From Thiotrichaceae bacterium (GTDB taxonomy: Bacteria > Pseudomonadota > Gammaproteobacteria > Eutrophobiales > Eutrophobiaceae): 62,541 nt of DNA. The position numbers and the translations under genes are program-made. Location of the stretch: positions 1 to 62,541 of the forward strand of contig DUBV01000087.1 in assembly GCA_012960105.1 (NCBI GenBank), in the 5' to 3' direction. Shown piece after piece: positions 18,521-41,561 of this stretch. Within the stretch, counting starts at the first letter, position 1. Each line of letters begins with the position of its first letter. Under the pieces are notes generated by a model. That model was not told where the DNA came from, made no database searches, and saw nothing but the letters and a program-made list of their open reading frames with translations.

Positions 18521-19243
18521 TCAACTAAGAATAAATGAATGTTTAAATTTGGCTGTAATCATGTAACGTAATGGCCCACCAGTCTGAATTGCATCAAAGG
18601 GATAACAGGTGATTAAAATGAGTTTGTTTTTTGAGTCGACAGGTATGGAATCAACTTTCGTTTTATCAATAATTTGTATGTTGCTAACTTGATAAACACT
18701 GGTTTTATCTTTCGATTGTAGTTCTATGTGATCTCCTTTTTTAAGTTTTTCCAAAAATGAAAAATGCGTGTCTCTGTGTCCAGATATTATGATGTTGCCT
18801 TTTGTCCCAGGTTTGGCGCTACCAAAAAGATGCCCTGGGCCAAAAGCCAGTGATGAACCACTAGCTCCGGCCAGGACGATGTGGCTAGTACCATAAGCGT
18901 GCGCACTAAGACGAGCAATTGGCCAGGTATCTGCCCAAGGCCACGGTTTTGCCTCCGTTTGACCATCGAGCGTCTCCGACCAAGCCGTCTCCAGGAGGAG
19001 TTGTGCTAACACCGCTTTGGTATGGATATAGGAGCCTTGTCCTATGAACCATAAGCCACAGAGGGGGGGGACTAATAGGATGACTTTTAAAATGCACTTT
19101 TTTCGTGATAACTTCGTCAGTGCCGTACTCGAGTCCTCATGTATGACATATACACTGCGGTTCTGCGTGCGGCGCTTCCTCGTTCTCACAAAAAAATCAC
19201 TATTTTTAAAGCCATCCTTAATATTTTTAAACGTATGAATCAT
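18521..19243 (-). CDS. Class GN sortase
   Basis: The 240-residue transpeptidase of the proteobacterial class GN type has a basic N-terminus, one membrane helix (about 48-66) and a periplasmic catalytic domain. His156 (SGHRDTHF), nucleophile Cys213 (ITCYPF) and Arg226 (GPLRYM) form the sortase triad. Its start overlaps the stop of its predicted substrate gene by ATGA. A tract of eight G (19063-19070; codons 58-61) lies between membrane helix and catalytic domain; a one-base change there would remove the active site. The N-terminus is rich in Arg and Lys and longer than I would expect. Confidence 0.88.
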   Translation of the reverse strand: MIHTFKNIKDGFKNSDFFVRTRKRRTQNRSVYVIHEDSSTALTKLSRKKCILKVILLVPPLCGLWFIGQGSYIHTKAVLAQLLLETAWSETLDGQTEAKPWPWADTWPIARLSAHAYGTSHIVLAGASGSSLAFGPGHLFGSAKPGTKGNIIISGHRDTHFSFLEKLKKGDHIELQSKDKTSVYQVSNIQIIDKTKVDSIPVDSKNKLILITCYPFDAIQTGGPLRYMITAKFKHSFILS

Positions 19244-21402
19244 GAGAACGGGTTAAGAAAACATTTTTGGCGATCTTGAGTCCATTCAGGAAAATAAATA
19301 AGAGAAGCAATTAACATGAGTAACAAGCCCATAATAAAATTCATACGTGCATCTGTTGCCGTTGCAGGAAATTGTTGTCCAAAGACTTTATTGTGATCCC
19401 AGCCCTTAGGTAAATGCGTTGGGATTACATGTGAATCGAGCTCTTCATCTTTAGGGCGTACCGGTGTGACATCGACAGCGACCAAACTGGTGTATTTACT
19501 AACCAGATGATGTTCTATTGCAGTTTCAATAATCGTTTGTTTTATAGATTCAAATTCAGCATCACGTTTTTGTTGCATGAGTGCAGAAATTTTATTTCTA
19601 GCCCATAGTGTCGAAATACCATTTCGACTTTGTCCACCATCGAGTTTCAGACTTGAAGACCAGTTATTATTCGCAACTTTACCTGTAATCTTTATTTCAC
19701 CGAGTTGTTGATTCGTTTTAGCTGTAATCAGTAAAGGCTCACCTTTATACAAATCAATAATCTTTTGTGGCCATATCTCCATATTTGTTTGCATCCAATC
19801 AATGGATATATCTTTTAATACAGGGCTTTCTATTTTTTCAAATAATGCAGCCATGCGCGTTTGCACTTCACCGAGCTTGCCAATATAAGTATGTGTGCCA
19901 CGTCCGAAATTTGCGGCGCGTTGCATAAAGTGGGAGTTAGGCGCCGATCCAATGCCTATGGTGAATAAACGACTACGTCCAAGTTGATTTTGTATGATTT
20001 CAAATAAAGCTTGTTCATTACCGATACTGCCATCAGTTAAAAAAACAACTTGTCGTAAATCATTATTGTCACCCTGATTAGAGAGTGCTGTTCGTAAGGC
20101 TGTTGCCATTTCGGTGCCGCCACCTGCTGTTAATGTAAGCACGTAATTAATGGCTTGCTGTATTGATACTGGAGTAACTAATTCTGATTGATTAAACAGT
20201 GATTGTGTTTGTGAATTAAATTGAATGACATTAAATCGATCTCCGGATTTAAGGCGAGTTAACGCTAGTTCCAGAGCTGCTCTGGCTTGAATAATTGATT
20301 GACCACCCATCGAACCAGAAGTGTCTATGACATAAATTATTTCTCTATTTATCGATTCTGATTTTTCTACACTAGGCGGCACCATCATAATCATGGCATA
20401 GGTATCACCGTTTAAGTCTTCTGTGAATAAAGCAGCCTTGGGTGCGACACTGGGGTGTGGCTTCCAGGTCAATTCAAAATCACGATTTGCAAGAGTTGAT
20501 TCTTGTTTAAGTACGATTTGATACTGATCAGATTGTCTATCGACTTGTATAGCATGATAGGGACTATCAATTTTTTCTAAAGCTAATCCAGCATCAAGTT
20601 TAATTTTTATTGCGATTATATTCTTGCGATCACTTCCAGGCTGTAATACAGGTGGCGTAATACGTTCGGCATCAGGAACTTCATCAGTATTTTTCGCCCA
20701 ACCTGTAGCGGAAAAGCTGTCTATGTTTTGTTCGCCAACAAGTGTTGAACCAAGAATACTGCCGGGTATATACCGAGGTCCAACCACCATAGGGAATCGT
20801 AATGAAAAAATACCATTGTCGAAATTAACTATTTGTTGATATTCAATTTCAACTTTAATCGTTTCATGCGGTGCAATATTGGCCACCGAAGTAGTAAAAA
20901 TATTTGGTCTTTCTTGCTCTGTCAGCGCAGCTTGTTTTCCCTGTTTCTTTGCCTGTTGGTAAATTTTCTTTGCTACTTGTTTCTCTTTTATCTGTCCTTC
21001 AATTATTCGTTCGCCAATTTTTAAACGCAGTCGGTCAACCGCAGCATTTTCAGGCAACGGGAAAACATAGATTCCTTCTTGCCATTGATCTGTCGTATTA
21101 GTAAAGCTTTGCGTTACACTGACACGGTTAATCATGCCAGTAACTACCATGTCTACATCTATATTTAGTTGAGCAGCTTTACTGTATTGATGCGCTTGTT
21201 TAAAAAGAAGAGTGCCTTGACCAATATCGGTCAGATTGTTAACGATGTCAGATCCAATTATCACATTCTGAGTTTGTTCGTCTGCATTAACAGGAATGCT
21301 GTTAAATAAAATAAACAATATAAAGGTGATAATTGACCCGCTGCTTAACCAGACTGAAGTTAAAAGTAATTTTGGGTTTGATAATCGATGGTTCGATTTC
21401 AT
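19240..21402 (-). CDS. Marine proteobacterial sortase target protein (VIT-VWA)
   Basis: This 720-residue protein starts with a membrane/signal helix (about 15-40). A VIT domain (about 55-185; FPLPENAAVDRLRLKIGERIIEG) and a von Willebrand A domain follow, with an intact MIDAS (DTSGSMGG, Asp360). The C-terminus is a sorting signal: FPATA (678-682), a hydrophobic helix (689-704) and a short polar/basic tail. It is the dedicated substrate of the adjacent class GN sortase, which would cut within the FPATA motif. In this family the target is encoded directly before its sortase, as here (ATGA overlap). Confidence 0.9.
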   Translation of the reverse strand: MKSNHRLSNPKLLLTSVWLSSGSIITFILFILFNSIPVNADEQTQNVIIGSDIVNNLTDIGQGTLLFKQAHQYSKAAQLNIDVDMVVTGMINRVSVTQSFTNTTDQWQEGIYVFPLPENAAVDRLRLKIGERIIEGQIKEKQVAKKIYQQAKKQGKQAALTEQERPNIFTTSVANIAPHETIKVEIEYQQIVNFDNGIFSLRFPMVVGPRYIPGSILGSTLVGEQNIDSFSATGWAKNTDEVPDAERITPPVLQPGSDRKNIIAIKIKLDAGLALEKIDSPYHAIQVDRQSDQYQIVLKQESTLANRDFELTWKPHPSVAPKAALFTEDLNGDTYAMIMMVPPSVEKSESINREIIYVIDTSGSMGGQSIIQARAALELALTRLKSGDRFNVIQFNSQTQSLFNQSELVTPVSIQQAINYVLTLTAGGGTEMATALRTALSNQGDNNDLRQVVFLTDGSIGNEQALFEIIQNQLGRSRLFTIGIGSAPNSHFMQRAANFGRGTHTYIGKLGEVQTRMAALFEKIESPVLKDISIDWMQTNMEIWPQKIIDLYKGEPLLITAKTNQQLGEIKITGKVANNNWSSSLKLDGGQSRNGISTLWARNKISALMQQKRDAEFESIKQTIIETAIEHHLVSKYTSLVAVDVTPVRPKDEELDSHVIPTHLPKGWDHNKVFGQQFPATATDARMNFIMGLLLMLIASLIYFPEWTQDRQKCFLNPFS

Positions 21403-21408
21403 GATGTA

Positions 21409-22119
21409 TTAAACCTCACGATCAAGCGTTAAACTAATTGTCACACGTCTATCAAAAACATAAGCTTCCTTATCACCTTGTTGCGCTTTTGTTTGACGTT
21501 CGCCATAGGCATGTGTGTGTAGCCGTTGTGATGAAATTCCTGAGTTAATAAATTCCGCGCGAACTTTTTTGATCCGTTCTTTACTAAGCGCCATGTTGTA
21601 ACTTTCTGAACCACGATAATCGGCATGACCTTCAATCTGGATCTGAATTTGTGGGTAGAGTTTTATCAACACCGCAAGTTGTTGGATTTGCGGTAGTACA
21701 TCACTGCGTATTTTGACATCGTTTGTTTTGTAGTAGATGACATAAGAAATACCCTGGCTTAAATTTTCCAGAGATTGAATTTCCTGACTATGAATGACAT
21801 GCTGAAATTCATTTTTAAATTGTTCTTTTGTACTAGCCAATTCATTTTGTTGATAAGCTAATTCCAGACTTTTTACATTCAACTCTTTTTCTAACATTGC
21901 AATTTTGTTGTCGGTATTGGTTTCATGAGTACCGAACCAGCTACCACCAACAGCGCCAATGATGGCTCCGGGAGGACCACCTAATAAGCCACCAATAAGG
22001 GCACCGATACTGAGTCCGGCATTTTCTTTTACGGAAGATATATGCTTTATGTCATCTGCATAGGTGGTAGATTGAATTCCGAGTAAACTAACTAGTAATA
22101 ATGATTTGCAAAATTTCAT
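21409..22119 (-). CDS. pdsO: Sortase-associated OmpA-like protein PdsO
   Basis: The 236-residue exported protein has a signal peptide (1-21), a glycine-zipper membrane segment (about 33-62; GALIGGLLGGPPGAIIGAVGG), a coiled coil and an OmpA-like peptidoglycan-binding domain (about 120-236; IEGHADYRGSESYNMALSKERI). This layout is that of PdsO, the OmpA-like component of the proteobacterial dedicated sortase system. The gene ends six bases before the sortase target gene and is divergent from pdsR across 216 bases. Confidence 0.88.
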   Translation of the reverse strand: MKFCKSLLLVSLLGIQSTTYADDIKHISSVKENAGLSIGALIGGLLGGPPGAIIGAVGGSWFGTHETNTDNKIAMLEKELNVKSLELAYQQNELASTKEQFKNEFQHVIHSQEIQSLENLSQGISYVIYYKTNDVKIRSDVLPQIQQLAVLIKLYPQIQIQIEGHADYRGSESYNMALSKERIKKVRAEFINSGISSQRLHTHAYGERQTKAQQGDKEAYVFDRRVTISLTLDREV

Positions 22120-22335
22120 GGTGAATCTCTCCTGTCTTTAAATCGTGTGTAATTAAGTGACACTGGTGACTATTAAAGACCATAGACATGGCAGAACCTG
22201 GCATGGAAAAGGGCAATACAGTGATGAAATGTGGCAAAAATATGGCAATACATACTTGGCTATTCCTATTTTCAGACAATCCCTCTAAAGTACGTAAAAG
22301 GCGCTTCTTAATTTAATAAACTTGTGGAGTCATGA

Positions 22336-23022
22336 ATGCCTAAACAAATTATCCTGGTTGAGGATGAACCCATACTTTGTGAAAACTATGCGAAAGCCAT
22401 TCGTGAACAGGGTTATGAGGTAATTACCTGTAATAACAAGCAAGATGCTTTGGATATCATCAATAAGCGATTGCCTGATCTTGCTCTTCTCGATATAGGT
22501 TTGGGTTATGATGCGGAAGCAGGTTTTGATTTATGTCGTGAAATACGCTCACTTTCACGAACATTACCGATTATATTTCTGACTGCTCGTGATTCGGATT
22601 TTGATACGATTTCTGGCTTACGTCTGGGAGCAGATGATTACTTGAGTAAAGATACCAGCATGCCGCATATTCTTGCTCGTATAGCTGCGTTGTTTCGACG
22701 AATACAGGCGCTGCAAGCACCGAATGAATCAGAACAAATTAAACACGAACAATTAATGGTTGATGCTCAATGTTTTCAAGTCGAATGGAATGGTGAGGTT
22801 GTTGATTTAAGTTTGACCGAATTCTGGATGGTGCATTCACTGGTGAAAAGAGTGGGTCATGTAAAAAATAGAGAACAACTCATGGGCGATTCAAATATCT
22901 ATGTTGATGATGGCACCATTACCTCTCATATAAAACGTATACGGAAAAAGTTTAAAGAATTAGATGATTCATTCGGCCATATAGAGACTGTTTACGGAAT
23001 AGGATATCGCTGGAAAACTTAA
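22336..23022 (+). CDS. pdsR: Dedicated sortase system response regulator PdsR
   Basis: The 228-residue OmpR-type regulator has a receiver domain with phosphoacceptor Asp53 (LALLDIGLG), acidic residues in VEDEP and Lys in LSKD, then a winged helix (SLTEFWMVHSLVKRVGHVKNREQLM, VYGIGYRW). It sits directly upstream of the sensor gene pdsS and is divergent from pdsO, the arrangement typical of the dedicated sortase system. It presumably controls the pdsO-target-sortase operon from the shared intergenic region. Confidence 0.9.
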   Translation: MPKQIILVEDEPILCENYAKAIREQGYEVITCNNKQDALDIINKRLPDLALLDIGLGYDAEAGFDLCREIRSLSRTLPIIFLTARDSDFDTISGLRLGADDYLSKDTSMPHILARIAALFRRIQALQAPNESEQIKHEQLMVDAQCFQVEWNGEVVDLSLTEFWMVHSLVKRVGHVKNREQLMGDSNIYVDDGTITSHIKRIRKKFKELDDSFGHIETVYGIGYRWKT

Positions 23023-23043
23023 GATTAGTTTTAATATTTATTC

Positions 23044-25107
23044 ATGTCTTCATCAAATATAAAATTTTCCCTGCGCAGCAAATTAATGTTGCTGTCTATA
23101 GCCGTATTAATTATCCCCTATATGGGGTTTGATTATTTAAAACAGATGGAGTCTTATCTAAGAGATACACTAGAAGCATCGCTGGTCGATAGTGCTTATG
23201 CTGTTGCTGGAGCTTTAAATGATAAGCCACGTTTGTTTGATTCTAGCTTTAATGAAGAAGAGAATAATTTATATGTACATCGTCTTAACAATACGGTTCA
23301 ACTTGATGGCTATACAGATGATTGGGACTCGTATATAGATTGGTCTGACTCCTATCATTCTGATTCCTTATTTAACTCAGATAATTTTAAATTAATAATC
23401 AGTAAAGATGACCACTATTATTATGTGTTGATACAGGTTGAAGATGATGAATTAATTTATTCTACTCTAGATCAATCAGAGAATATCGAAGGTGATCATT
23501 TTGTTGTCATTTACCGTGACAAATATCAACGCTTACAAAAGGATTATTTTGTGCCAAGCGGCCCGGGTTTAGTCAGACCGTTTCGATACGAAGAAAGCCT
23601 GGATGTTTACGGAGTAGAAACACGCGTACAAAAAAACTTAACTAATACCTCTGCCGTGTGGCAAGCCACTGAGGTTGGTTATAATATTGAAATTAAAATT
23701 CCAGTTTATTTAGTTGGTGAACGATTAGGTTTTATTTTTAACGATATTGATAAAACTAAAAAGAGTGCAATTAGTACTTATGGAAAAACAATTTATGATG
23801 AACCGGGAAGAGTCATTAGTTCATCGAGAAGAATTGAAACAATAATCTATACGCAAGGTCGTAGTGAAGGACGACGCATTTGGGTGCTTGATAAAGCGGC
23901 ACAGGTATTGGCCAATGATGGTAGCTTGAGACGTGTATTTCCTGATAATGCATTTAATATTATATATACTTTATTATTGCCTCCGGCCTCGGATTCTTTC
24001 ACCGATGATTTGGCTGGTGCTTCACGTTTACATGGTAATGAAGTAAAAGCTGCTTTGTCAGGTAATACACAAACGCGTTGGCGTTCCTCGCCTGATGGCA
24101 AAGCGGTGATTGTTTCCGCAGCAACCCCGGTCTGGTTTGAAAACAAAGTGGTTGGCGCTGTTGTTATTGAGGAAACCACGAATAATATTCAGATCATGCA
24201 ACGACAAGTGTTAGCCAGCTTGTTTAATAAAACCTTATTAATATTTTTTGTTATTGTCTTTTTGCTATTACTTTTTGCTAGCCGATTATCTTCTCGTCTT
24301 ATTAGACTTAATAAAGAAACAACAGCGGCTATAGATGAATATGGGAAGGTAAAAGGTAAAATATCGCTTAGTCATTCCAGTGATGAAATTGGTGAGCTAT
24401 CTCGAAGTTTTGGCAGCATGCTTGAACGTTTACAGCAATACCATAATTATCTCGAAGGCATGGCGAGTCGACTGTCACATGAGTTACGTACGCCGATGGC
24501 CATCGTTAAATCATCTTTGGATCGGTTGCATACGGCACAGGATGAAGACAGTCGCAAAGAAATACTGCAAGCGGCGGATACAGGTTTGCAACGTTTACAA
24601 ACATTACTAACGCGTTTGAGCGAAGCCGCGCGACTAGAACAAGCGTTACAGGAATCCGACAAAGAAGAGACTAATCTTAATGATTTTCTTAAACAATGTA
24701 TTGATGGTTATCAATTAGCTTATCCTAACAAGGCATTCAAATTATTAAAACCTGATGCAGATTTGAATTACAAAATTAATCGAGATTTATTTTTCCAGAT
24801 GTTGGATAAGCTAATCAGTAATGCTGTTGACTTCTCTTTTTCGGATAAAGAAGTTCTGATTATATTAATTGATAGAGTCGGAGAGATAGAAATTCAGGTG
24901 GTTAATTTTGGACCACGTTTACCAGAAGGTATGCTTGATGAATTATTCAACTCTATGGTATCAGTACGTAATGAAAGAACCGAAGTTGGCCCGCATCTAG
25001 GTCTGGGATTATTTGTTGCAAAATTAATTGCCGAATTTCATGATGGAAAAATTTTCGCAAGCAATTTGAATGACGAAGAAGGTGTTTGTATCAGTATTGT
25101 ATTTTAG
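23044..25107 (+). CDS. pdsS: Dedicated sortase system histidine kinase PdsS
   Basis: The 687-residue sensor kinase has an N-terminal membrane helix (about 12-30) and a long periplasmic region to about residue 390, partly resembling a carbohydrate-binding-like beta fold (VQLDGYTDDWDSYIDW). A second helix, HAMP, the dimerisation domain with phosphoacceptor His479 (RLSHELRTP) and an ATPase domain (N-box ISNAVDFS, GLGLFVAK) follow. This architecture is that of PdsS. It begins 21 bases after pdsR. The signal sensed is unknown. Confidence 0.9.
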   Translation: MSSSNIKFSLRSKLMLLSIAVLIIPYMGFDYLKQMESYLRDTLEASLVDSAYAVAGALNDKPRLFDSSFNEEENNLYVHRLNNTVQLDGYTDDWDSYIDWSDSYHSDSLFNSDNFKLIISKDDHYYYVLIQVEDDELIYSTLDQSENIEGDHFVVIYRDKYQRLQKDYFVPSGPGLVRPFRYEESLDVYGVETRVQKNLTNTSAVWQATEVGYNIEIKIPVYLVGERLGFIFNDIDKTKKSAISTYGKTIYDEPGRVISSSRRIETIIYTQGRSEGRRIWVLDKAAQVLANDGSLRRVFPDNAFNIIYTLLLPPASDSFTDDLAGASRLHGNEVKAALSGNTQTRWRSSPDGKAVIVSAATPVWFENKVVGAVVIEETTNNIQIMQRQVLASLFNKTLLIFFVIVFLLLLFASRLSSRLIRLNKETTAAIDEYGKVKGKISLSHSSDEIGELSRSFGSMLERLQQYHNYLEGMASRLSHELRTPMAIVKSSLDRLHTAQDEDSRKEILQAADTGLQRLQTLLTRLSEAARLEQALQESDKEETNLNDFLKQCIDGYQLAYPNKAFKLLKPDADLNYKINRDLFFQMLDKLISNAVDFSFSDKEVLIILIDRVGEIEIQVVNFGPRLPEGMLDELFNSMVSVRNERTEVGPHLGLGLFVAKLIAEFHDGKIFASNLNDEEGVCISIVF

Positions 25108-25111
25108 AATA

Positions 25112-25830
25112 TCACCAAAACTTTAATTTCTCTTCCGTCTTGTTGTTCGACTTAGTATCTAGGTTAGTTTTCAATGCTCGGGTTATTAATCCTGACTGCG
25201 TCAGTGATACTAAGTATGTTGCATTATCTGCCATGGGTAAATAAGTCGCGCTGCCATAATAAGCATTGATCCAAGGTAACCATTTCTTATGATTGTGAGC
25301 TAACTTCCAATGGTCAATTTGATCTCTTGGACCCAGAGCATAAACCGTACGAGTTTTTGTACGTTCTTCATCAATATCGCTATAGCGGCCACTGATTCTT
25401 TCTAATCGATATTGTGCATTTAGTCCGAGTATTTATGCCCAGCCATACCATTTGATAACTCGCGCATCTATTTGCCATTCATCGCCGTTGATTAAGTAGC
25501 TATCAAGCTTTTTTTATTCTCAAATGAAATATCAACTTGAAACTGTTGTTCTTCCATTTTTTTAAAAGTGAGCTGGACTATAGGCTGCTCAAAGGTAAGC
25601 CGACCGTAGCTGTAGAAGTTCATTGCTATGGAAAGGCTGAGTAGAGCAGCAAGGCAGAGTGATAATCCGGATAGACTCTGGATGCTTGCTGTCAGTATAT
25701 TTCCACGAAAAAATCGCTTAATAGCCAGCACAATAAATAACAGACTCAGAGCCAGTAATGATCCTACGGCGGATAAAATCCGATAGTCCAGATCAAGGGA
25801 AATTTCTGATCTAAATAGCTCGTTTAACAT
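25112..25830 (-). pseudogene. Decayed membrane-protein gene
   Basis: From ATG 25830 the frame gives two membrane helices and an exported beta-rich start, then shifts in a T7 run (25509-25515 on the plus strand; A7 in the gene). The continuing frame (INGDEWQIDARVIKWYGWA) meets an in-frame TAA at 25433-25435 and then continues (ILGLNAQYRLERISGRYSDI, YALGPRDQIDHW) to a TGA at 25112. I recognise it only as a conserved gammaproteobacterial membrane protein, sometimes labelled multidrug efflux pump without evidence. Two lesions imply a pseudogene, though the frameshift alone could be a sequencing error. Confidence 0.7.
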
Positions 25831-26014: not shown

Positions 26015-28417
26015 ATGTCAGAAGCAAACGAACAAATCCTGCAGCGAATCAAGCAGCTCATTCCAATTAATGAATTGACGCCAAATCTGCAGTCGAAACT
26101 ACTAAATAGCGCTCAGGTTTTAAACGTAAAAAAATCGAGGTTTCTCTTCAAACAGGGCGATAAAGATGAGTATTCGTATTTTCTGCTCGAAGGTGAGGTT
26201 GAATTACATGCAAATAAAAAGCTGGATAGCGTACTCGATATCAGTAGTGATCGAGCCAAATATGCTTTGGCACAATTACAACCGCGACAATTCTCGGTAA
26301 AAGCCAAGACAGAAATTAAGGTTTTACTGATTGAGCGTAATAAGCTTGATCAACTAATGTTATTAGCTCAGGAAAGTACACTAAGCTCAACTATGTCAGG
26401 TGGTACTGATATTGAAGTCGATGTGGTAGATGGCGTTGACGACGACACTGATTGGATGACGCAGATGCTGCAATCAGAATTATTTTCTCGTATGTCTATG
26501 CCCAATATCCATCAGCTTTTTGCCTTGTTGGAGCCAATCGATAAAAAAGCCGGTGAGGTTGTTATTTCTCAAGGTGAGCCTGGAGAACATTATTATATAA
26601 TCTCGGAAGGAAAATGTGCTGTATCGAGAAAACCAATGCCGACTAGCAAAGATGTCAAATTAGCAGAGTTGAAGACGGGTGACAGTTTTGGTGAAGAAGC
26701 TCTGATATCAGATTCAACACGTAATGCAACGATTACCATGATTACAGATGGTGTCTTGATGAAACTGTCAAAAGATACATTTATTGAGTTAATTCAAAAA
26801 CCGACATTAGAATCATTATCGTTTTCTGATGCAGAAGCATTGGTCGACGAAGGTGCTGTCTGGTTGGATGTGCGTTTTCCTAATGAGCATCAGGAATCAT
26901 CAATTGATGACAGCATTAATATTCCACTTAATTCCTTGCGACTGAAGACGGACGATTTAGATTCTTCAAAACAATATGTTTTGTTTTGCGATACAGGTGG
27001 TCGTAGTTCCACCGGTGCATTCTTATTAGCCGAGCGTGGATTTACTGTTTCTTATCTTGAAGGTGGCTTAGTTAATAATCCTGAAGCGCTCGGTGTGCAA
27101 GCAGTTGTGCCAGAAGAACCTAAAAAAGCTCCTAAACCAGTTGAAGTAAAAAAAGAAAAAGAAGTAGAAGCGGATATTGATGTCGGTGTCGTTAATGAAG
27201 CCATTGATGCGCATGTACGTGTTGAAATACTAAATGCGAAACTTGAAACGACACAAATAGAGATGTCTGTGGCCGAAGATTCAAAAGATGAATTTGAGAA
27301 AGAAAATCAGAAAAAGTTATTAGCAGCTAAAAAGAAACTTGAAGCCCAAAAAACAAAAGCAGAAGCAGAAGCGAAAGAAAAAGAAAAAGAAGAAGAATTA
27401 AAGTTTCAGAAACTTAAGGAAGAAGCTAAAAAGAAAATGTTGCAAGAGAAAAAGCAACTAGAAGAAATTTATAATAAAAATGCCAAAGACATGGAAAAAC
27501 TTCAGAAGGCAAAGGAACAAGCCGAAGAGGAAATACGTAAGGAACGTGAGAAGCTTGAGCAACAAGCCGAAGCGGCTAAAAAACAAATAGAAGAAGCAGA
27601 AAGACTCAAGCAAGAAATTGAAGAATCGAAAAAAGGATTAGAAGTACAAGCTGAAAAGAAAAAGCTTGAAGATGAAGCTAGAGTAAAGAAAATTCAGGAT
27701 GCAGCAAAAGCTGAAATTGAAGAAGAGCGTAAAAAGCTGGCAGAGCAGTATGATCGTAATGCTAAAGAGTTTGAAGAACTTAAAAAAGAAAAAGCTGCAA
27801 CTGAAGCTGTACGTATAGCTGCGAAAGAAGAGGCGGATAAGATTATTCGCGAACATAAATTATCACATGAAAAAACACGCGCTGACGAAGTAGAGAAAAT
27901 GAAAGCCGAGCGTTTGGCACTTGAGGAAAAATCAAAGAAGATTGAAAGTGCAATGCAGCAAATTCAACAGGCCAAACAAAAAGCTGAAGAGGAAAAGAAA
28001 GTAGCATTAAGTAAGGCTAAAGACTTAAAAGAAAAACAAATGGAGTCGACCAATACTAAAGAACAGCGTGCCCAAATAGATACAGAAATCGAAGTTGTAT
28101 CCAAAAAGGTTGTTCAGGCTGAACGCAGCCTTAAGGATGTTAACCATCAAGCGAAACAAGCCGTATCTGCGAAAAAGCTTAATGAAGCAGACTTGATTAA
28201 GAAGGCAGAAGAAGAAAAAGAATTTCAGGTGCAAGTTCAGAACGACTTAGAAGAATTTGAAGATAAGCAGCAAGAAGAAGCCGAGACCGTGACTCAGGTA
28301 CAAGTTCATTCTGATCAGATGAAACGTATTATGGCTAAGGCTGCTGATGCGAAAATAAAAGCGGCTTCGGCAAATAAAAATTTAATGAATGACATATCTA
28401 AACAACTTGGTGATTAA
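26015..28417 (+). CDS. CNB-CNB-rhodanese protein with a long C-terminal coiled coil
   Basis: The 800-residue protein has a degenerate cyclic-nucleotide-binding (CNB) fold (about 30-115), then a second CNB domain (about 150-255) whose phosphate cassette looks intact (FGEEALI, RNATI). A rhodanese domain follows (about 265-355) with Cys325 in FCDTGGRSS. From about residue 400 to the end the protein is a highly charged Lys/Glu/Ala coiled coil. No signal or membrane helix is evident, so it is cytosolic. It is upstream of the Fae-like gene on the same strand (86 bases) and has a paralogue at 30998. Known CNB-rhodanese proteins are short; the 400-residue coiled coil suggests a scaffold or filament role, which is inference. 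Confidence 0.8.
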   Translation: MSEANEQILQRIKQLIPINELTPNLQSKLLNSAQVLNVKKSRFLFKQGDKDEYSYFLLEGEVELHANKKLDSVLDISSDRAKYALAQLQPRQFSVKAKTEIKVLLIERNKLDQLMLLAQESTLSSTMSGGTDIEVDVVDGVDDDTDWMTQMLQSELFSRMSMPNIHQLFALLEPIDKKAGEVVISQGEPGEHYYIISEGKCAVSRKPMPTSKDVKLAELKTGDSFGEEALISDSTRNATITMITDGVLMKLSKDTFIELIQKPTLESLSFSDAEALVDEGAVWLDVRFPNEHQESSIDDSINIPLNSLRLKTDDLDSSKQYVLFCDTGGRSSTGAFLLAERGFTVSYLEGGLVNNPEALGVQAVVPEEPKKAPKPVEVKKEKEVEADIDVGVVNEAIDAHVRVEILNAKLETTQIEMSVAEDSKDEFEKENQKKLLAAKKKLEAQKTKAEAEAKEKEKEEELKFQKLKEEAKKKMLQEKKQLEEIYNKNAKDMEKLQKAKEQAEEEIRKEREKLEQQAEAAKKQIEEAERLKQEIEESKKGLEVQAEKKKLEDEARVKKIQDAAKAEIEEERKKLAEQYDRNAKEFEELKKEKAATEAVRIAAKEEADKIIREHKLSHEKTRADEVEKMKAERLALEEKSKKIESAMQQIQQAKQKAEEEKKVALSKAKDLKEKQMESTNTKEQRAQIDTEIEVVSKKVVQAERSLKDVNHQAKQAVSAKKLNEADLIKKAEEEKEFQVQVQNDLEEFEDKQQEEAETVTQVQVHSDQMKRIMAKAADAKIKAASANKNLMNDISKQLGD

Positions 28418-28503
28418 TAGTTAAGTATCATCAGGTATCGTTTTTTAGTTCTTAAATAACTTAATTTCATATTTATAATCTATAAGAGTAAGGAGTATTG
28501 AGC

Positions 28504-29052
28504 ATGAGTGAACGTATTGTTATGCGTGTAGGTGAAGCATTGGTTGCAGGTGGCCCTCCAGGTACCGCCGCAGAGCCAGAAGTTGTCATAGGTGAACTTG
28601 ATGGACCAGTAGGAAATGCTTTTGCAAATTTAATTGGTGATCAAGTGAAAGGTCATTCACGCGTTTTAGCTATTATGAATACTGATATTATGGTTAAGCC
28701 AGCAACATTGATGGTGAGTAAAGTAACTGTTAATAAAGAGCGATATACCAATATCCTTATGGGAACGGTTCAAGGTGCAATTGCAAATGGTGTATTGGAT
28801 GCCGTTCGTAGTGGTGATATTCCCAAAGAGAAAGCGAATGATTTGGGTATTATTGTTTCAGTATGGTTAAACCCACTTGTTGCTAAAGCCGATGATCTGG
28901 ATCATAAAATACTATTTGATATTCATCGTAAGGCGACTGCTATGGCAATTCATAAAGCGATGAATAATGAACCTGATATTGACTGGTTGTTAGAAAATCA
29001 GGAAGAGATTATTCACAAGTATTATCAAATGGGATTGGACGGTAAAATCTAA
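28504..29052 (+). CDS. Formaldehyde-activating enzyme (Fae) homologue, active-site histidine not seen
   Basis: The 182-residue protein matches the Fae family along its length (VGEALV, KPATLMVSKVTV, GTVQGAIANGVLDAVRSGDIP, LGIIVSVWLNP, KATAMAIHKAMN). True Fae condenses formaldehyde with tetrahydromethanopterin. Where the characterised enzyme has AHIDL (His17), this protein has AEPEVVIGELDG with a slightly longer loop, so the catalytic His seems missing. It may therefore have another role, as suspected for some Fae paralogues. I start at ATG 28504, which has AAGGAG eight bases upstream; a TTG six bases earlier is less likely. It lies between the CNB-rhodanese gene and an exported unknown. Confidence 0.82.
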   Translation: MSERIVMRVGEALVAGGPPGTAAEPEVVIGELDGPVGNAFANLIGDQVKGHSRVLAIMNTDIMVKPATLMVSKVTVNKERYTNILMGTVQGAIANGVLDAVRSGDIPKEKANDLGIIVSVWLNPLVAKADDLDHKILFDIHRKATAMAIHKAMNNEPDIDWLLENQEEIIHKYYQMGLDGKI

Positions 29053-29110
29053 TTACGACGGGATAGGTTCGTTGCATCAGCATCGATATTTCATTTAGGG
29101 ACAAAAATCA

Positions 29111-30331
29111 ATGATTAAGAATTATTTAAAATCAGGTATGTTTATTAGTCTGTGCATTTTTTCATGGATTGTTGTCGCTGGTGAAAACGAAACTTATCCT
29201 GTAGTTAATAGTAATAACGTTTTATCCTCCGAATATTTGTCTTCGACATATCATCGAGTTGATTCAGTTAATATCAATAACGATTATTATCATTTTGTCG
29301 TTGAGTCAGATATTGGGCGTTACGATATTCATTCGCTCGCTTTGTTAAAGAAGCGAGTGAATGAAATTAAAACTATTTCGCGTGCTATTAATACCTATGA
29401 ACAGCAAGACGATGAGTTATCAGGAGAATTACGTAGTCAGTTAACGCTTTCCAGTGATTCAGCAATGAGTTTGCTTACTTCACCATTGGATTCAGCCTCG
29501 AATCTTGCTGGGCAATTAGCGGGCAACCTGAATGCAACACTTGATGGAGAAGATCCTTTTGTCTATCAATCGAGCAGTCGACTAGCTTATGAGCCTAAGG
29601 ATGCTACAACGGCAACACATAAACGTAATATTGCATTTCAACTTGGTCTGGATATGTATACCAGCAATACCCGAGTTCAGTCTTTTCTAAATACCATCGC
29701 AAATGCGCGTTCTTCAGGCAGGGCATCAGCAGGTGTTGGTTTGAGTAATGCTCTAGCAAAAAGCTCAGATGTTGATGGTATGGATTTTAAAATAAAATAC
29801 TTAATTAAAAACCGAACACTTGTTCAATTGAAACATCATAATAGTGAATGGCTTGCCAGAATGGGTGTTAATGAACTATTGATTAATAATTTTATTGAGC
29901 ATCCTGTATTAACTCCCACAAATAAAACAGTCATCACGGCGTATTTATCAAAGCTTAAAAATGTGTCGAGATTGGATAAATTTATTGAGTTGGTATTAAC
30001 TGCAAATAATGAAGTGATGTCCTTAATATATGAACGATTGAGCAAAGCATTATTACAGTATCAGGATAAAACAGAACATTTTAGTGCGTTCTATAATTTT
30101 AATGGTCAGGCCGCTGTTATTACAGACTCACGTAGAATTGTATTCTTTGATACAGCGGACTTATTAATCTGGTCAGAAGAGAAACAAATTAAATATGAAA
30201 AGTCTGCAAATCATGCAGAAAAATCAGGTTACAAAGGTTGGGAAATAGTGAGCTTTGGTGATATCTCTCGACTAGCTAGTCAAAAAATAAGTGAATTAGC
30301 GTTTAAACATACGGTTAAATTATCTGAGTAA
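29111..30331 (+). CDS. Exported protein of unknown function
   Basis: The 406-residue product has a signal peptide (about 1-23, cleaved after VVA). The mature protein is mainly helical with a glycine/serine/alanine-rich middle (residues about 120-210; SARSSGRASAGVGLSNALAK) and a C-terminal part resembling no domain I know. It lies 58 bases after the Fae-like gene on the same strand and is the last plus-strand gene of that unit before a convergent small gene. It is probably a periplasmic or outer-membrane partner of the cluster, but this is positional inference. Confidence 0.6.
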   Translation: MIKNYLKSGMFISLCIFSWIVVAGENETYPVVNSNNVLSSEYLSSTYHRVDSVNINNDYYHFVVESDIGRYDIHSLALLKKRVNEIKTISRAINTYEQQDDELSGELRSQLTLSSDSAMSLLTSPLDSASNLAGQLAGNLNATLDGEDPFVYQSSSRLAYEPKDATTATHKRNIAFQLGLDMYTSNTRVQSFLNTIANARSSGRASAGVGLSNALAKSSDVDGMDFKIKYLIKNRTLVQLKHHNSEWLARMGVNELLINNFIEHPVLTPTNKTVITAYLSKLKNVSRLDKFIELVLTANNEVMSLIYERLSKALLQYQDKTEHFSAFYNFNGQAAVITDSRRIVFFDTADLLIWSEEKQIKYEKSANHAEKSGYKGWEIVSFGDISRLASQKISELAFKHTVKLSE

Positions 30332-30334
30332 TTG

Positions 30335-30637
30335 TTATGTCTCGGAAGGTGAGTTTATAGATAAATCTTCTATTTGTTTTTTTAACTGACCGTGTCGATT
30401 ATTTTGCAAGTTCAATAGTAGTGTTCTTATATTCTTAATATGTTTCATATAGACCGTTAGTAAACCAATCTCAATAGGTGTTTTTGCATTACCAATCGAA
30501 CGAATTCTTTCTTCGTAATAACTTAAGTCATTTAGTAATATCGTCTCGTTGTCATCAAGCATTTTTTCAAAATGGAATATTTTCCAAAGTAGTGACTTCT
30601 CTTTTTCATCTATCGCTAGTAATTCAATTACAGACAC
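30335..30637 (-). CDS. Small helical protein of unknown function
   Basis: The 100-residue protein starts with GTG at 30637, which has a strong GAGGAG site at the right spacing, supporting a real gene. It is predicted almost entirely helical (KEKSLLWKIFHFEKMLDD, MKHIKNIRTLLLNLQNN) and has no membrane segment. It converges on the exported unknown gene with three bases between. I do not recognise it. Confidence 0.55.
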   Translation of the reverse strand: MSVIELLAIDEKEKSLLWKIFHFEKMLDDNETILLNDLSYYEERIRSIGNAKTPIEIGLLTVYMKHIKNIRTLLLNLQNNRHGQLKKQIEDLSINSPSET

Positions 30638-30793
30638 TCAGTTTTTCTCCTCAGATGGAATATCTTAAGTAGCGCAAGCCACGTGCCAAGAAAACCAATG
30701 TTATTAAAACTTATTTTAAATCAATCAGATAGATTGAATTATTGCCTGTAAGTAAGTTTATTTAAGTGGGTTTTATATCGATAATTTATAGTT

Positions 30794-30815
30794 TTCGTCG
30801 TTCAAGAACGACGAA
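30794..30815. repeat. Palindrome with 10-bp perfect arms
   Basis: TTCGTCGTTC (30794-30803) is inverted as GAACGACGAA (30806-30815) with two bases between. It could be an operator or a 9-bp-stem tetraloop hairpin; neighbouring A/T runs are on both sides but no gene end is near enough to make a terminator convincing. Confidence 0.7.
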
Positions 30816-30889
30816 TTTATAAAAATAAGTGTCATTTATTTTTAATAATTGTGAGATATAAAAAATAATAGATTAAATGTGCTGAATCC

Positions 30890-30905
30890 TGTGAGCATGT
30901 TCACA
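30890..30905. promoter_or_regulatory. CRP binding site, perfect consensus
   Basis: TGTGAGCATGTTCACA matches TGTGA-N6-TCACA exactly. It is centred about 100 bases upstream of the ATG of the second CNB-rhodanese gene, a plausible position for activation of that gene by a CRP-type regulator. No crp gene is in the window. Confidence 0.6.
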
Positions 30906-30997
30906 TATTAAGAGTTTTAATGTGTTAACAATGGGGTAAATAGCCTACATATAGACTCAAGTAATATAATCGTAGTGCATTGAACAAGTAAAAATAT

Positions 30998-32944
30998 ATG
31001 GCTTTACAATCAGACATTGAATTAATTAACGTTTTACAATCTCTCGTTCCGATAAGCAATTTATCGAAAGATAATATTGAGCTAATTGCTGCAAGTTCAA
31101 ATGTTCAATCCTTTGTAAAAGACTACATTGTCTTTAGCGAAGGTGATAATGATGAGTATGCCTATTATTTACTTGAAGGTGAGTTAGAACTTATCTCCAT
31201 GAATAGTACAAATTTTCACGTTGTTTCAGGTACAGATGATGCCCGTTATCCTTTGGCACAATTTCGACCTAGACAATATACTGCTAAAGCAAAAAAAGAT
31301 TCTCTGGTCTTAGTTCTTAACAGAACATTTCTCGACTCATTATTAGTTAGAAATAAAACGTATAATTCTTATATGGATGATGGTGTTGAAGTAACAGAGA
31401 ATATTGATGACGATGACTGGATGAGCCGAATTTTACAGTCTCCGCTATACACCAATATTTCAGTTGATAACATTCAAAAGATTTTTTCAAAAATTGAATC
31501 GATGGATGTAAAGAAGGGTGACGTCATCATTAAGCAGGGTGATGAAGGTGATTATTATTACATAATCCAGTCGGGGCACTGCTGCATTAGTAGAAAGCCA
31601 ACGCCGACATCACAAGATATTAATCTTGCTGATTTAAGAGAAGGCGATGCCTTTGGTGAAGAATCAATTATTGCTGATTTAAAACGAAATGCATCGGTTA
31701 CTATGACTACCGATGGTCGTTTAATACGGCTTAATAAAAAAGATTTTATAGAGTTGATTCTTGAGCCGATCTTACATGAAACAAATTTTGATTCAGCTCA
31801 GGATATAGCAAACAAAGGTGCTATTTGGCTGGATGTTCGTTATGTTGATGAATATCAGGATTACGCGATAGAAGGTAGTTTGAATATTCCTTTAAACGTA
31901 CTCCGCCTTCAGATAGATAAGCTGGATGATTCTAGACAATACATTACCTGTTGCGATACTGCCGCTAGAAGTTCGATAGCTGCTTATATACTTGCGCAGC
32001 ATGGCTATGATGTACTTCATTTAAACAAAGGTCTAAAGCATCTTGTTAAGCACGAAGATATAGAGCAGGTTGAAATACAAGTACAAGATCAAGCTTCTGA
32101 GTATGATGAAAAATCAAAGCAAGAAAATTCTACGAATGTAGTTCCCTTTAAAAACAATCAAGCCACTAATACTGACGAGCATGTATTGAACAGTACTTTC
32201 CATGACGAAATGAATCAACTGCGCAAAGAACTTGATTTGGTTAGAGAGCAATTTAAAGAATTAGAGTATGTAAAAGACATTGCCGCTGATTTAAAAAAAT
32301 CAGTTATTGTTGATACTGAAAAAAAGTTGAAGATACAAAAGGAACGAATCAATTTGCAAACTCAAAATGCAAATAAACTCATTCTGCAAGCGCAGGAAAT
32401 GCACAAAGAATTAAAAGAAGAAAAACGTTTGATTCATGAAAAGGTTGAGAAGCATCGTATAGATCAGGAACAAACGATATTGAATATACAGGACAGTATC
32501 AATAAAAGTTTACTGGAAGAAGAAAAAAAGATGCAGGTATTTTATACGTGGAAGGAAAATGAAATTAATAAAATCCGGGACTTAAAAATTGCTGCTGAAC
32601 GAGAATACCTTAGCCGAAAGATAGAAAACGAATTAGAGAAAAATAATGTTTCAATTCAAATTAAAAAATCAGATACTGAATCAGTAAAATCTGAAGCGGT
32701 AGATTTTAAACTTACGGAAAATAATAATGATGAACAAGAAGAAATGCATACTGATTTGAAAGAATGGTTAGGTCAGCAGGTGAAAAATGAAATGTCACCG
32801 ATTAATAAAGCGGTTCAGAATGCAAAGCGTAGAGTAATGGAGCAAGCTAATTTACGCGCGGGAAAAATGAAACAGATTTCAAAAATGCACGATCAAGCTC
32901 TTTTTTCCGAAATTGATACTTTACTGAAAGGAGTTGAGGATTAG
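30998..32944 (+). CDS. CNB-CNB-rhodanese coiled-coil protein, paralogue of 26015-28417
   Basis: The 648-residue protein repeats the layout of its paralogue: degenerate CNB fold (about 25-110), a second CNB domain (about 145-250) with FGEESII and RNASV, and rhodanese (about 260-350) with Cys318-Cys319 in CCDTAARSS. A C-terminal coiled coil follows (about 400-560), shorter and less regular than in the first copy, and then a helical tail. The first 350 residues are clearly homologous. A perfect CRP site lies upstream. It is probably cytosolic. The vicinal cysteines at the rhodanese site differ from the single cysteine of the paralogue, which may alter sulfur chemistry. Confidence 0.8.
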   Translation: MALQSDIELINVLQSLVPISNLSKDNIELIAASSNVQSFVKDYIVFSEGDNDEYAYYLLEGELELISMNSTNFHVVSGTDDARYPLAQFRPRQYTAKAKKDSLVLVLNRTFLDSLLVRNKTYNSYMDDGVEVTENIDDDDWMSRILQSPLYTNISVDNIQKIFSKIESMDVKKGDVIIKQGDEGDYYYIIQSGHCCISRKPTPTSQDINLADLREGDAFGEESIIADLKRNASVTMTTDGRLIRLNKKDFIELILEPILHETNFDSAQDIANKGAIWLDVRYVDEYQDYAIEGSLNIPLNVLRLQIDKLDDSRQYITCCDTAARSSIAAYILAQHGYDVLHLNKGLKHLVKHEDIEQVEIQVQDQASEYDEKSKQENSTNVVPFKNNQATNTDEHVLNSTFHDEMNQLRKELDLVREQFKELEYVKDIAADLKKSVIVDTEKKLKIQKERINLQTQNANKLILQAQEMHKELKEEKRLIHEKVEKHRIDQEQTILNIQDSINKSLLEEEKKMQVFYTWKENEINKIRDLKIAAEREYLSRKIENELEKNNVSIQIKKSDTESVKSEAVDFKLTENNNDEQEEMHTDLKEWLGQQVKNEMSPINKAVQNAKRRVMEQANLRAGKMKQISKMHDQALFSEIDTLLKGVED

Positions 32945-32975: not shown

Positions 32976-33812
32976 TCACCAAAGTTCCCACACAGGTGTG
33001 AGCCCCTGCGGTAAGCCCGATAATTTTCCAAGCTGTGCCCAGGGTGTATTGGCATTGTGATAATCTGAACCTACTGAGCCTGCCATGTCATAACGCTTGG
33101 CATAATTTGTCATAGTTGTAATTTCGTTTTGATTATTATTACCAGTGACGACTTCAATTGCTTTGCCACCGCTGTCCTTAAATTCTGAAATTAATTTTCG
33201 CAATTTTGTTGCAGTCATTTTATAACGTAAGGGATGTGCGATTACGGCAACGCCACCAGCATTTGTAATGTTATTAATTGTTTCATCAAGACTAGGCCAG
33301 TTTACAGAGACATAACCGGGTTTGTTATTAACCAAAAAGCGTTTGAAAACATCGGCCTGACTTTTTGCATGACCATTATTTACCAGAAATTGTGAAAAAT
33401 GCTGCCGGGTAACGGTACCGTCTCCAGCAATTATTTTGGTATTTTCATAAGCGTTTTCAATACCGACTTTTTCTAATTTTTCACCAATTTTAATCGCGCG
33501 TTCTTCCCTGAGTTTATTGAGATGTATAGTGGCATCGAAGATAGTATTATTCTCTGCATCTATATTAAGCCCGACAATATGAATAGTTTTGTTATCCCAT
33601 CGTGTTGAAAACTCAATGCCATTAATTAAAGTGATGTTGTGTCTAGATGCTGCCGTTTGTGCTTCGGCAAGACCAGAAACAGTGTCGTGGTCAGTTAGAG
33701 CCAGTATATTTACGCTATTATCTACTGCTTTCACAACAAGTTCCGTGGGAGTTAATTCCCCATCTGATGCCGTTGAATGTGCATGTAAGTCGATAATGGT
33801 TTGGTGAGACAT
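32976..33812 (-). CDS. PHP-domain phosphoesterase, RNase AM (YciV) type
   Basis: The 278-residue protein has the PHP metal-binding motifs (IDLHAHSTASDGELTPTELV, LALTDHDTVSGLAEA, NGIEFSTRW, VIAHPLR, VGSDYH). It is of the YciV/TrpH type, which hydrolyses 3',5'-nucleoside bisphosphates and trims 5' ends of small RNAs. Full length and complete metal ligands suggest an active enzyme. It is eight bases from yajQ on the same strand, so the two are likely cotranscribed. Confidence 0.88.
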   Translation of the reverse strand: MSHQTIIDLHAHSTASDGELTPTELVVKAVDNSVNILALTDHDTVSGLAEAQTAASRHNITLINGIEFSTRWDNKTIHIVGLNIDAENNTIFDATIHLNKLREERAIKIGEKLEKVGIENAYENTKIIAGDGTVTRQHFSQFLVNNGHAKSQADVFKRFLVNNKPGYVSVNWPSLDETINNITNAGGVAVIAHPLRYKMTATKLRKLISEFKDSGGKAIEVVTGNNNQNEITTMTNYAKRYDMAGSVGSDYHNANTPWAQLGKLSGLPQGLTPVWELW

Positions 33813-33820
33813 TATGATTG

Positions 33821-34303
33821 TTAGTCGCGAAAGTTGATGTACTGCAAGGGGACATCAAACTTAGCTTCTTTTAGTTCAGCAATAGTCTGTTGTAAATCAT
33901 CGCGCTTCTTTCCTGTAATACGAACCTGTTCTCCCTGAATTGCCGCCTGTGTTTTTAATTTACTGGTTTTAATCATCTTTACAATCTTTCTTGCCAGTTC
34001 TTTATCCACACCTTTTTTAATATTGACGATTTGTCGTGCTTCATTATTATTTTCGATTATGTCGGCATAATCCAGACAACGGATATCAATACCTCGTTTA
34101 TTGATTTTGGTTTCGAGTATTTCCTGAATTTGTTTTACCTGAAATTCAGAAGAAGAAATGATTGTCAGGTTACCATCTACCTTGTCTATTTTTGAATCAG
34201 TGCCCTTGAAATCAAAACGATTACTGATTTCACGATTGGCCTGATCAATGGCGTTAGTTAGTTCATGTTGATCAATTTCAGAAACAACATCAAATGAAGG
34301 CAT
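33821..34303 (-). CDS. yajQ: YajQ-family nucleotide/c-di-GMP-binding protein
   Basis: The 160-residue protein has the standard YajQ start (MPSFDVVSEIDQHELTNAIDQ) and RFDFKGTDSKID motif, two ferredoxin-like lobes and a conserved end (VPLQYINFRD). Some members bind cyclic di-GMP and act with transcription factors. The window also holds a broken GGDEF gene, so a c-di-GMP link is possible but unproven. Confidence 0.95.
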   Translation of the reverse strand: MPSFDVVSEIDQHELTNAIDQANREISNRFDFKGTDSKIDKVDGNLTIISSSEFQVKQIQEILETKINKRGIDIRCLDYADIIENNNEARQIVNIKKGVDKELARKIVKMIKTSKLKTQAAIQGEQVRITGKKRDDLQQTIAELKEAKFDVPLQYINFRD

Positions 34304-40304: not shown

Positions 40305-41561
40305 ATGGCTTCTCCCATATCAACGCTGACAAATGATGCCAATGCAGGAGATATAGATGCTCAACTGCAGCTTGCGGATCTGTATGAGAATGGCTTTGGT
40401 GTTCTGCTTGATCAGGGACAGGCCGCGTATTGGTACAGAAAAGCCGCAGATCAAGATTCATCTAAGGCGCAATCTCACCTTGGTCAAATGTACATGCGTG
40501 GTGTAGGTGTACCCGAAGACTATGAACAAGCGGTGGAGTGGTTGACTAAATCAGCAGAAAAAGGTGATGCCATTGCGCAAGTTAATTTAGCTTGGTGTTA
40601 TCAACATGGTCTGGGAGTAGAAAAGAATTATGAACAGGCATTTGATTGCTATCTTAAATCAGCAGAACTTGGTCATGCTGGTGCGCGTTACAATTTAGCT
40701 TATATGTATTCTAAAGGTATTGGTATAACGAGAAATAATACAGAAGCTTTAAATTGGTACTTACTTGCTGCGAAGCAAGGACACATGAAAGCGCAACTTA
40801 ATGTTGGATTAATGTTTGCGCAAGGAACGGCGACAAAAACAAATGAAAAAGAGGCGGCTCGTTGGTATCGCGAAGCGGCGAATCAAGGTTATGTCAAGGC
40901 ACAGTATAATCTTGCACTTATGTATGGTGGTGGACTTGGTGTCCCGCAGGATGATGAAGAAGCATTTAAGTGGCATCAACTCGCAGCTCAACAAGGATAT
41001 GCGCGAGCACAATTTAATATGGGACTTTTTTATATTAATGGTTTAGGTGTGCCTCAAGATTTTAAAGCCGCTGAAAAATGTTTTCAGTTAGCAGCAAAAC
41101 AATCCTATGCCAAAGCGAATTATCAAATCGGTAAGTTACATGCTTTTGGATTAGGACTACCCGTTAATGAAATGGAAGCAGTGAAGTTTTATCGACTAGC
41201 TGCGAATGATGGTTATGACAAAGCGCAGTATCGTTTGGGACATCTCTATGCCAAAGGGCAAGGCATCGAAAAAGATGATGTGATTGCCTGTACATGGTTT
41301 GAAAAAGCCGCCCGACAAGGATACCAAAAATCACAACACATGCTTGGAGTGCGTTATGTAAAAGGTTTAGGAGTAAAGAAAGATTACGTCCATGCTTATG
41401 CCTGGTTGTTATTAGCGAATGATTCAATAGACAAACACATTAGCGAAGCATTAGCGCGCGTGCGCGACAAATTATCTGAAGGACAAGTATCCGAAGCTGG
41501 AGTATTGGCTAGTGAATATAGTCAGGCTTATAAAAGAAGGGATACTCAACTTACGGCTTAA
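40305..41561 (+). CDS. Sel1-repeat protein
   Basis: The 418-residue protein consists of about ten Sel1-like repeats of 36 residues (KAQYNLALMYGGGLGVPQDD and variants), forming an alpha solenoid used for protein interactions. No signal peptide is evident, so it is probably cytosolic, unlike most bacterial Sel1 proteins, which are exported. Its last four bases overlap the end of the convergent saccharopine-dehydrogenase-like gene. The role is unknown. Confidence 0.85.
   Translation: MASPISTLTNDANAGDIDAQLQLADLYENGFGVLLDQGQAAYWYRKAADQDSSKAQSHLGQMYMRGVGVPEDYEQAVEWLTKSAEKGDAIAQVNLAWCYQHGLGVEKNYEQAFDCYLKSAELGHAGARYNLAYMYSKGIGITRNNTEALNWYLLAAKQGHMKAQLNVGLMFAQGTATKTNEKEAARWYREAANQGYVKAQYNLALMYGGGLGVPQDDEEAFKWHQLAAQQGYARAQFNMGLFYINGLGVPQDFKAAEKCFQLAAKQSYAKANYQIGKLHAFGLGLPVNEMEAVKFYRLAANDGYDKAQYRLGHLYAKGQGIEKDDVIACTWFEKAARQGYQKSQHMLGVRYVKGLGVKKDYVHAYAWLLLANDSIDKHISEALARVRDKLSEGQVSEAGVLASEYSQAYKRRDTQLTA

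Follow-up and report, generated by a model that had tools for sequence, protein, structure and literature searches.

Contig DUBV01000087.1 of a Thiotrichaceae bacterium (assembly GCA_012960105.1), a stretch of 62,541 nucleotides referred to here as the window, encodes two large paralogous proteins in which two cyclic nucleotide-binding (CNB) domains are followed by a rhodanese domain and a coiled coil. Both lie on the plus strand: A, of 800 amino acids (aa), at 26015..28417, and B, of 648 aa, at 30998..32944. Between them, on the same strand, stand a homologue of Fae and a probably exported protein, E, as the first-pass annotation of the locus had already noted. Most full-length A-type proteins end in a common C-terminal tail that is restricted to this architecture among the genomes sampled, and it is E that accompanies A from family to family. 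Neither the Fae homologue nor the adjoining class GN sortase locus has a general link with A. The parts themselves are of known kinds; what is new is their combination with a subfamily-defining tail and the recurrent pairing of long paralogues. The same annotation knew of no described system with this architecture, and searches of the open-licence PubMed Central (PMC) literature turned up no description of it; a 2023 survey of the rhodanese-phosphatase superfamily, outside that scope, may have one.

Domain architecture of the two paralogues

The assignment of A rests on its open reading frame, Pfam, alignment and a structural model. The cNMP_binding model (PF00027) scores 97 bits on A and 94.4 bits on B against a cut-off of 27.5, with two matched stretches in each protein, and the Rhodanese model (PF00581) scores 48.8 and 39.8 bits, respectively, against a cut-off of 22.2. 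Pfam finds neither a kinase domain nor an HK97 shell domain in either protein. The second CNB of A (26450..26800) bears an FGE...R cassette whose G226, E227 and R236, which we take to be the phosphate-binding residues, are kept in all 19 rows of the alignment, four B proteins included. Cys325, in the active loop of the rhodanese domain (26816..27073), is likewise invariant in 19/19 rows, again with the four B proteins. The first CNB (26042..26359) is degenerate: the G-E pair of its cassette is replaced in the alignment, and a stretch of the type AQxxPRQ is conserved there instead. An AlphaFold model of residues 1-380 of A, built on 19 alignment rows (mean predicted local distance difference test score, pLDDT, 77.5), matches in Foldseek the tandem CNBs of the regulatory parts of PKA and PKG. 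The top matches, 6no7, 2qcs and 4z07, reach E-values of ~1e-19 to 1e-18 with TM-scores of ~0.27-0.30 (normalised by the model), and the root-mean-square deviation of 16-22 Å over both CNBs arises because the domains are oriented differently. This match supports a CNB fold for the first domain despite the loss of its cassette. A role in defence was considered and rejected, the PADLOC matches of A and B falling on the CNB parts of TIR effectors.

Behind the rhodanese domain, A continues as a proline-free coiled coil (27152..28282). The C-terminal 420 aa contain no proline and show a hydrophobic period of 3.5 residues; the heptad contrast of the coil is 0.378, against 0.273 +/- 0.022 in shuffled sequences, and its i,i+4 salt bridges number 78 against 46 +/- 5. 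Nor does this region vary freely, an outcome that would have spoken against the first-pass proposal. In the 21 of 40 distinct A-like proteins used for the comparison (family f1, >780 aa), the mean pairwise identity is 0.41-0.54 in three coil segments and 0.26-0.32 in two linkers, with ~0.13 expected from coil composition alone; the excess over the linkers indicates that the coil is constrained. Pfam, the cassette alignment and the coil statistics together bear out the first-pass reading of both paralogues as one degenerate and one intact CNB followed by a rhodanese domain and a coil, the coil of B being the weaker one.

A conserved C-terminal tail
 
The coil of A runs into a tail of 44 residues, of the type RI..kA..Ak......LL.dIa.qL (28283..28414, plus strand), which is common to the majority of full-length A-type proteins; the long forms L262 and L273 lack it. 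A search with the tail alone returned 25 matches in 16 of 369 genomes sampled from the class. In this sample the tail is restricted to the architecture of two CNBs and a rhodanese domain (CNB2-rhodanese): 21 of the 25 matches lie in frame inside long CNB2-rhodanese frames, two (G071, G216) lie on the same strand in another frame within ~2.4 kb after a CNB2-rhodanese match, and two (G175, G383) lie on short frames whose context fell outside the check. Nine of the 16 tail genomes hold two tails if the short frames of G175 and G383 are counted. In G031 (L093), an in-frame stop near 9003 splits the A orthologue ahead of the tail.

The CNB-CNB-rhodanese core itself is far more widespread, occurring, among the matches listed, in 170 of the 369 class genomes at E<=1e-30, in frames of ~340 to ~2000 aa. 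Among the frames that were fetched, the short ones measure ~350 aa, those with a coil ~600-1300 aa, and five giants 1465-1881 aa. Pfam places an FGE-sulfatase domain at the end of two giants (L211, 6951-11348; L268, 9628-14397), and L267, L269 and L274 have similar ends; in L211, a segment resembling a transmembrane (TM) helix was read by eye ahead of the FGE domain. Neighbouring pairs of long paralogues recur in six families (f1, f9, f92, f120, f133 and f140), and f12 has two long copies on separate contigs. The tree suggests that one pair arose before f92, f120 and f133 diverged (one half is starred, and the whole group reaches just 92/94) and that a separate pair arose within f12, some long branches, B-like rows among them, being placed unsurely.

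The probably exported protein E tracks A

E (406 aa, 29111..30331, plus strand) is probably exported, as a hydrophobic, signal-like segment read by eye at its N-terminus indicates. It has no match among the Pfam or NCBIfam models. Its distribution was followed in the class sample and in a set of 58 relatives, the window's own genome included. Within the latter, A is present in 27 genomes, the window type of Fae in 22 and E in 21. A was counted where the best match with its N-terminal part exceeded 360 bits, plus G018 on contig-edge pieces; the count includes a form without a coil in G002 and leaves out weaker long relatives in G044 and G037. Twenty of the 21 E genomes hold A (p=8e-9; within f1, p=4.7e-4; Fisher tests, relatedness ignored), two of the 21 E matches (G032, G034) being weak fragments, and in G013, the E genome without a counted A, the contig with E begins inside an A-like coil with a tail. 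The association persists across the class, where E occurs in nine of the 369 genomes and seven of these nine have the tail (p=2.3e-9). Outside f1, the tail is present in five of seven E genomes (p=5e-7), and all five genomes with E matches above 250 bits have it. In G002, where A ends straight after the rhodanese domain (L068, 10669-11748) with no coil, and is still directly followed by the Fae homologue, neither E nor B was found.

The structural model of E is good only from about residue 222; the pLDDT falls below 50 at 95-158, and the N-terminal half is poor and barely tested. No Foldseek match was obtained in the PDB at E<=0.001. Residues 300-406 weakly resemble the PD-(D/E)XK and RPB5 folds, the best Z, to 5gkj, being 8.6 over 94 residues, a level that common arrangements reach as well. 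Unlike PD-(D/E)XK proteins with their catalytic lysine, this region has no invariant or near-invariant Lys in 13 rows. A distant paralogue of E in the same genome (G000:C105:32948-34111, L106; 24% identity) adjoins genes for DUF3300 and DUF2950 proteins.

The Fae homologue as a probable local companion

The Fae homologue is best started at ATG 28504, which yields the 182 aa seen in relatives (28504..29052, plus strand); the listed start is a TTG at 28498. It scores 200.6 bits with the Pfam Fae model (cut-off 27) and 128.6 with TIGR03126 (cut-off 118.05). In a 24-row motif alignment (4 of 26 loci gave no row), canonical Fae rows carry the motif A-H-I-D, whose histidine we take to be catalytic, the class of the window carries A-E-P-E and a third class A-M-P-E; L010, which has an internal stop, was left out of the Fae alignment. 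Seven methylotroph genomes hold three Fae classes each, one of them the window type at 83-85% identity, another at 42-47% and the canonical one at 32-36%; the canonical Fae of the window's own genome, encoded on C78, is 34% identical. Of 41 sampled genomes of the Methylobacillus family, 20 carry the window type and 35 a type with 39-46% identity. A comparison of nine genomes reports fae2 in all nine and fae3 in four (PMC4109929), and the distribution of the two types fits the table given there. The window protein is thus most likely of the Fae3 kind, a naming made by distribution. If so, the fae2 reported to be induced 14-fold by lanthanum (PMC6277846) is probably of another class.

The first-pass annotation had drawn Fae chemistry into the core of the system, a reading that the counts do not support. 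The Fae loci compared, the closest 80 of 530, come from records named Methylobacillus, Methylotuvimicrobium, Methyloversatilis, Rickettsiales and others. Five yielded no Fae frame on open reading frame calling; at the 75 examined, with flanks of <=8 kb, A is present at 15 and absent at 60, nine of these 60 having <3 kb of upstream DNA. Some of the 75 belong to genomes that are also in the set of 58 relatives. Within that set, A and the window-type Fae occur together in 17 genomes, adjacent in 16 and split at two contig ends in G017; counting the weaker relative in G044 as A, they would share 18 genomes and be adjacent in 16. Ten of the 27 A genomes lack the window-type Fae, and five of the 22 Fae3 genomes lack A, among them G044, whose weaker, tail-bearing relative of A lies on another contig. 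Fae was accordingly rejected as a general partner of the core, on these counts and on the absence of the AHID histidine. Of the first-pass expectation of a conserved neighbourhood, the conservation stood: the exact order A, Fae, E, g100 (a small gene on the other strand) and B is found in seven of the 58 genomes (G000, G001, G003, G004, G007, G009 and G019, own genome counted). The co-occurrence of Fae with A did not prove general.

Within this lineage the arrangement is nonetheless tight. Gaps of 86 bp separate A from Fae and 58 bp Fae from E, and no terminator-like site on the plus strand lies within A-Fae-E; promoter-like sites are uninformative, at 22 against 29.5 in shuffled sequences, that is, fewer than chance. 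Fae3 has a mean column identity of 91% (19 rows), and within the genus the identity to the window protein is 89-97% for Fae, 71-77% for the N-terminus of A and 57-70% for E. The higher values of Fae indicate a strong constraint of its own, which fits a separate job. Judged from these sequences, the Fae3-type protein looks like a local operon companion and no core part; the Fae3 kind has here a fixed genomic context in one lineage.

The sortase locus and other neighbours

Upstream, the block is bordered by the locus of a class GN sortase (18521..25107), with all five components present: the sortase, its target protein and pdsO on the minus strand (18521..22119), and the two-component genes pdsR and pdsS on the plus strand (22336..25107). 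Sortase, target and PdsR score above their cut-offs; PdsS (603.7 against 612.2) and PdsO (148.1 against 152.2) fall slightly under. The link between this locus and A is local. The sortase target is present in 60 of the 369 class genomes, yet in only three of the 16 tail genomes (p=0.50) and, outside f1, in one of 13 (p=0.90); the sortase was accordingly rejected as a general partner of A and retained as a rival reading for f1. Between PdsS and A, on the minus strand, lies U (25111..25830), by eye a probable two-TM protein, which is intact in relatives (223-240 aa in most) and frameshifted here by an assembly error or by decay.

The small protein g100 (30335..30637, minus strand), whose family is not known, lies beside E and/or B in relatives. 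It stands beside B even where B sits elsewhere (G016), lies inside the pair in f140, and also adjoins E in G005, G011 and G026, genomes that showed no B; its loci include L216, L263, L071, L076 and L089. Downstream of B, a PHP-domain gene and yajQ (DUF520) occupy 32976..34303 on the minus strand, yajQ itself at 33821-34303. It lies near A-class genes in four families, f1, f12, f92 and f140 (the window, L258, L263, L264 and L266), and its product is described as a cyclic di-GMP effector in Xanthomonas (PMC4199771). A Sel1-repeat protein with ten repeats (40305-41561, plus strand) resembles genes in the vicinity of A-class members in f92 and f120, a likeness that may be mere repeat similarity. 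The window's own genome also encodes a third, short CNB-CNB-rhodanese paralogue of 347 aa on C60 and three class III cyclase domains; the C60 paralogue, the canonical Fae on C78 and the sortase locus had escaped the first-pass annotation.

A tentative model and its rivals

We put forward tentatively, and give somewhat less than an even chance, that A and B are cytoplasmic rhodanese scaffold proteins gated by a cyclic mononucleotide (cNMP) and acting with an exported partner. The second CNB would bind the cNMP, probably cyclic AMP (cAMP), and the first, its cassette lost, would probably act as an interface. Nucleotide binding would change the state of the rhodanese domain, which may carry or sense persulfide sulfur on Cys325, and would also alter the coiled coil, by which the two proteins could self-assemble or pair, possibly as the scaffold proposed in the first-pass annotation. 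The tail might then dock onto a partner, most likely one connected to the envelope, with E as the putative exported end of the pathway. The invariance of the cassette and of the cysteine, the tandem-CNB fold, the three cyclase domains, the constrained coil, the distribution of the tail, the recurrent pairing and the co-occurrence of E all speak for such a model, and the giants with an FGE domain behind CNB2, rhodanese and coil, one of them with a TM-like segment, make an envelope role plausible.

A number of points weigh against it. Nine of the 16 genomes with a tail give no match to E at E<=1e-6, and outside f1, E shares the contig at a distance of ~17-18 kb in f12 and sits on a different contig in f120. 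The genomes entered in the Fisher tests, where G013 counted as lacking A, are not independent of one another. B is the poorer member of the pair, with a coil of lower quality (heptad contrast 0.334 against 0.276 +/- 0.026; 22 salt bridges against 20.5 +/- 3.8) and a weak, degenerate version of the tail. The cytoplasmic location of A and the export of E both come from reading the sequences, and we infer the ligand, the role of sulfur, the assembly, the docking of the tail, the envelope link and the contact between A and E. Finally, Fae3 immediately follows A in 16 of the 17 genomes with both, which may reflect a function shared in this family.

Three rivals can be set against the scaffold model. 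That A, B, E, Fae3 and the sortase genes stand together through inheritance, without a common function, is unlikely, albeit with some claim to attention: in four families yajQ lies close to A-class genes, a sign of an old locus, and the links to sortase and Fae fade outside f1. Inherited synteny sits poorly with the co-occurrence of E and tail, which persists where E is not adjacent, and with G002, where coil, B and E are absent together while Fae3 stays. We consider it distinctly unlikely that A, E and B are accessories of the class GN sortase under PdsRS, with A reporting the cAMP or redox state to surface-protein anchoring. Such a role is suggested by pdsS matches (counted above 360 bits, together with the split genes of G018 and G037) in 24 of the 27 A genomes (p=8e-8; within f1, p=1.6e-4), by A lying close to pdsS, with <=2 open reading frames between, in 18 of the 27, and by a relative in f140 with an A-class gene and pdsS on one 19-kb stretch. 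It is opposed by the scarcity of the sortase target among tail genomes given above and by G016, G019 and G002, in which pdsS is 13 kb off or on another contig.

More doubtful still is a one-carbon (C1) sensing unit, in which Fae3 would bind a C1 or pterin ligand and relay its state to A. The adjacency in 16 of the 17 genomes with both genes, the 17th being the one split at contig ends, the short gaps without a terminator-like site and the high conservation of Fae3 all agree with it, as does the co-occurrence of A and Fae3 (p=2.8e-4 in the 58 genomes), which is weak within f1 (p=0.04). Signal transduction is among the functions proposed for fae-like genes according to PMC4109929, and in Methyloversatilis universalis, according to PMC5023235, methylamine raises fae3 nearly tenfold and no revertants came from a mutant lacking both fae1 and fae3. 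The same source reports normal growth after single deletion of fae2 or fae3. A and Fae3 also occur without each other at the frequencies already given, and G002 retains Fae3 beside an A without a coil.

Returning to the scaffold model, its widest form would make these proteins an undescribed gammaproteobacterial family relaying cAMP to sulfur chemistry and on to the envelope, the paired tail forms working with E and the giants holding an extracytoplasmic part in a single chain. This extension is very unlikely as a whole. A cNMP receptor found across the class and coupled to sulfur transfer would newly connect cAMP signalling with persulfide chemistry; for tests, the tail and E offer direct handles.

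Relation to known systems

Several described systems share parts with the block. Family 2B encapsulins likewise possess a CNB domain, set within a shell protein of the HK97 type; Pfam detects no HK97 shell domain in A or B. As described in PMC8346489, a pair of CNB shell proteins is frequent in their operons, and the cysteine desulfurase operons of family 2A include rhodaneses among the accessory genes; the short paralogue on C60 matches the family 2B model over the CNB only, far below the cut-off. Canonical Fae differs from the window protein, which passes the Fae models, by its identity of 32-36% and by the A-H-I-D motif, here A-E-P-E. The regulatory subunit of PKA (PKA-R) and PKG have tandem CNBs as A does; in A, the first CNB has no cassette, a rhodanese domain and a coil follow, and Pfam finds no kinase domain. 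Other proteins are built on the same core. The short gammaproteobacterial CNB-CNB-rhodanese proteins (~350 aa) share it at ~39-45% identity and have neither coil nor tail, and the four short rows in the tree group with the giants. The giants themselves share both core and long coil with A, and in them an FGE-sulfatase domain (by Pfam in two) or a similar end (in three) takes the place of the tail.

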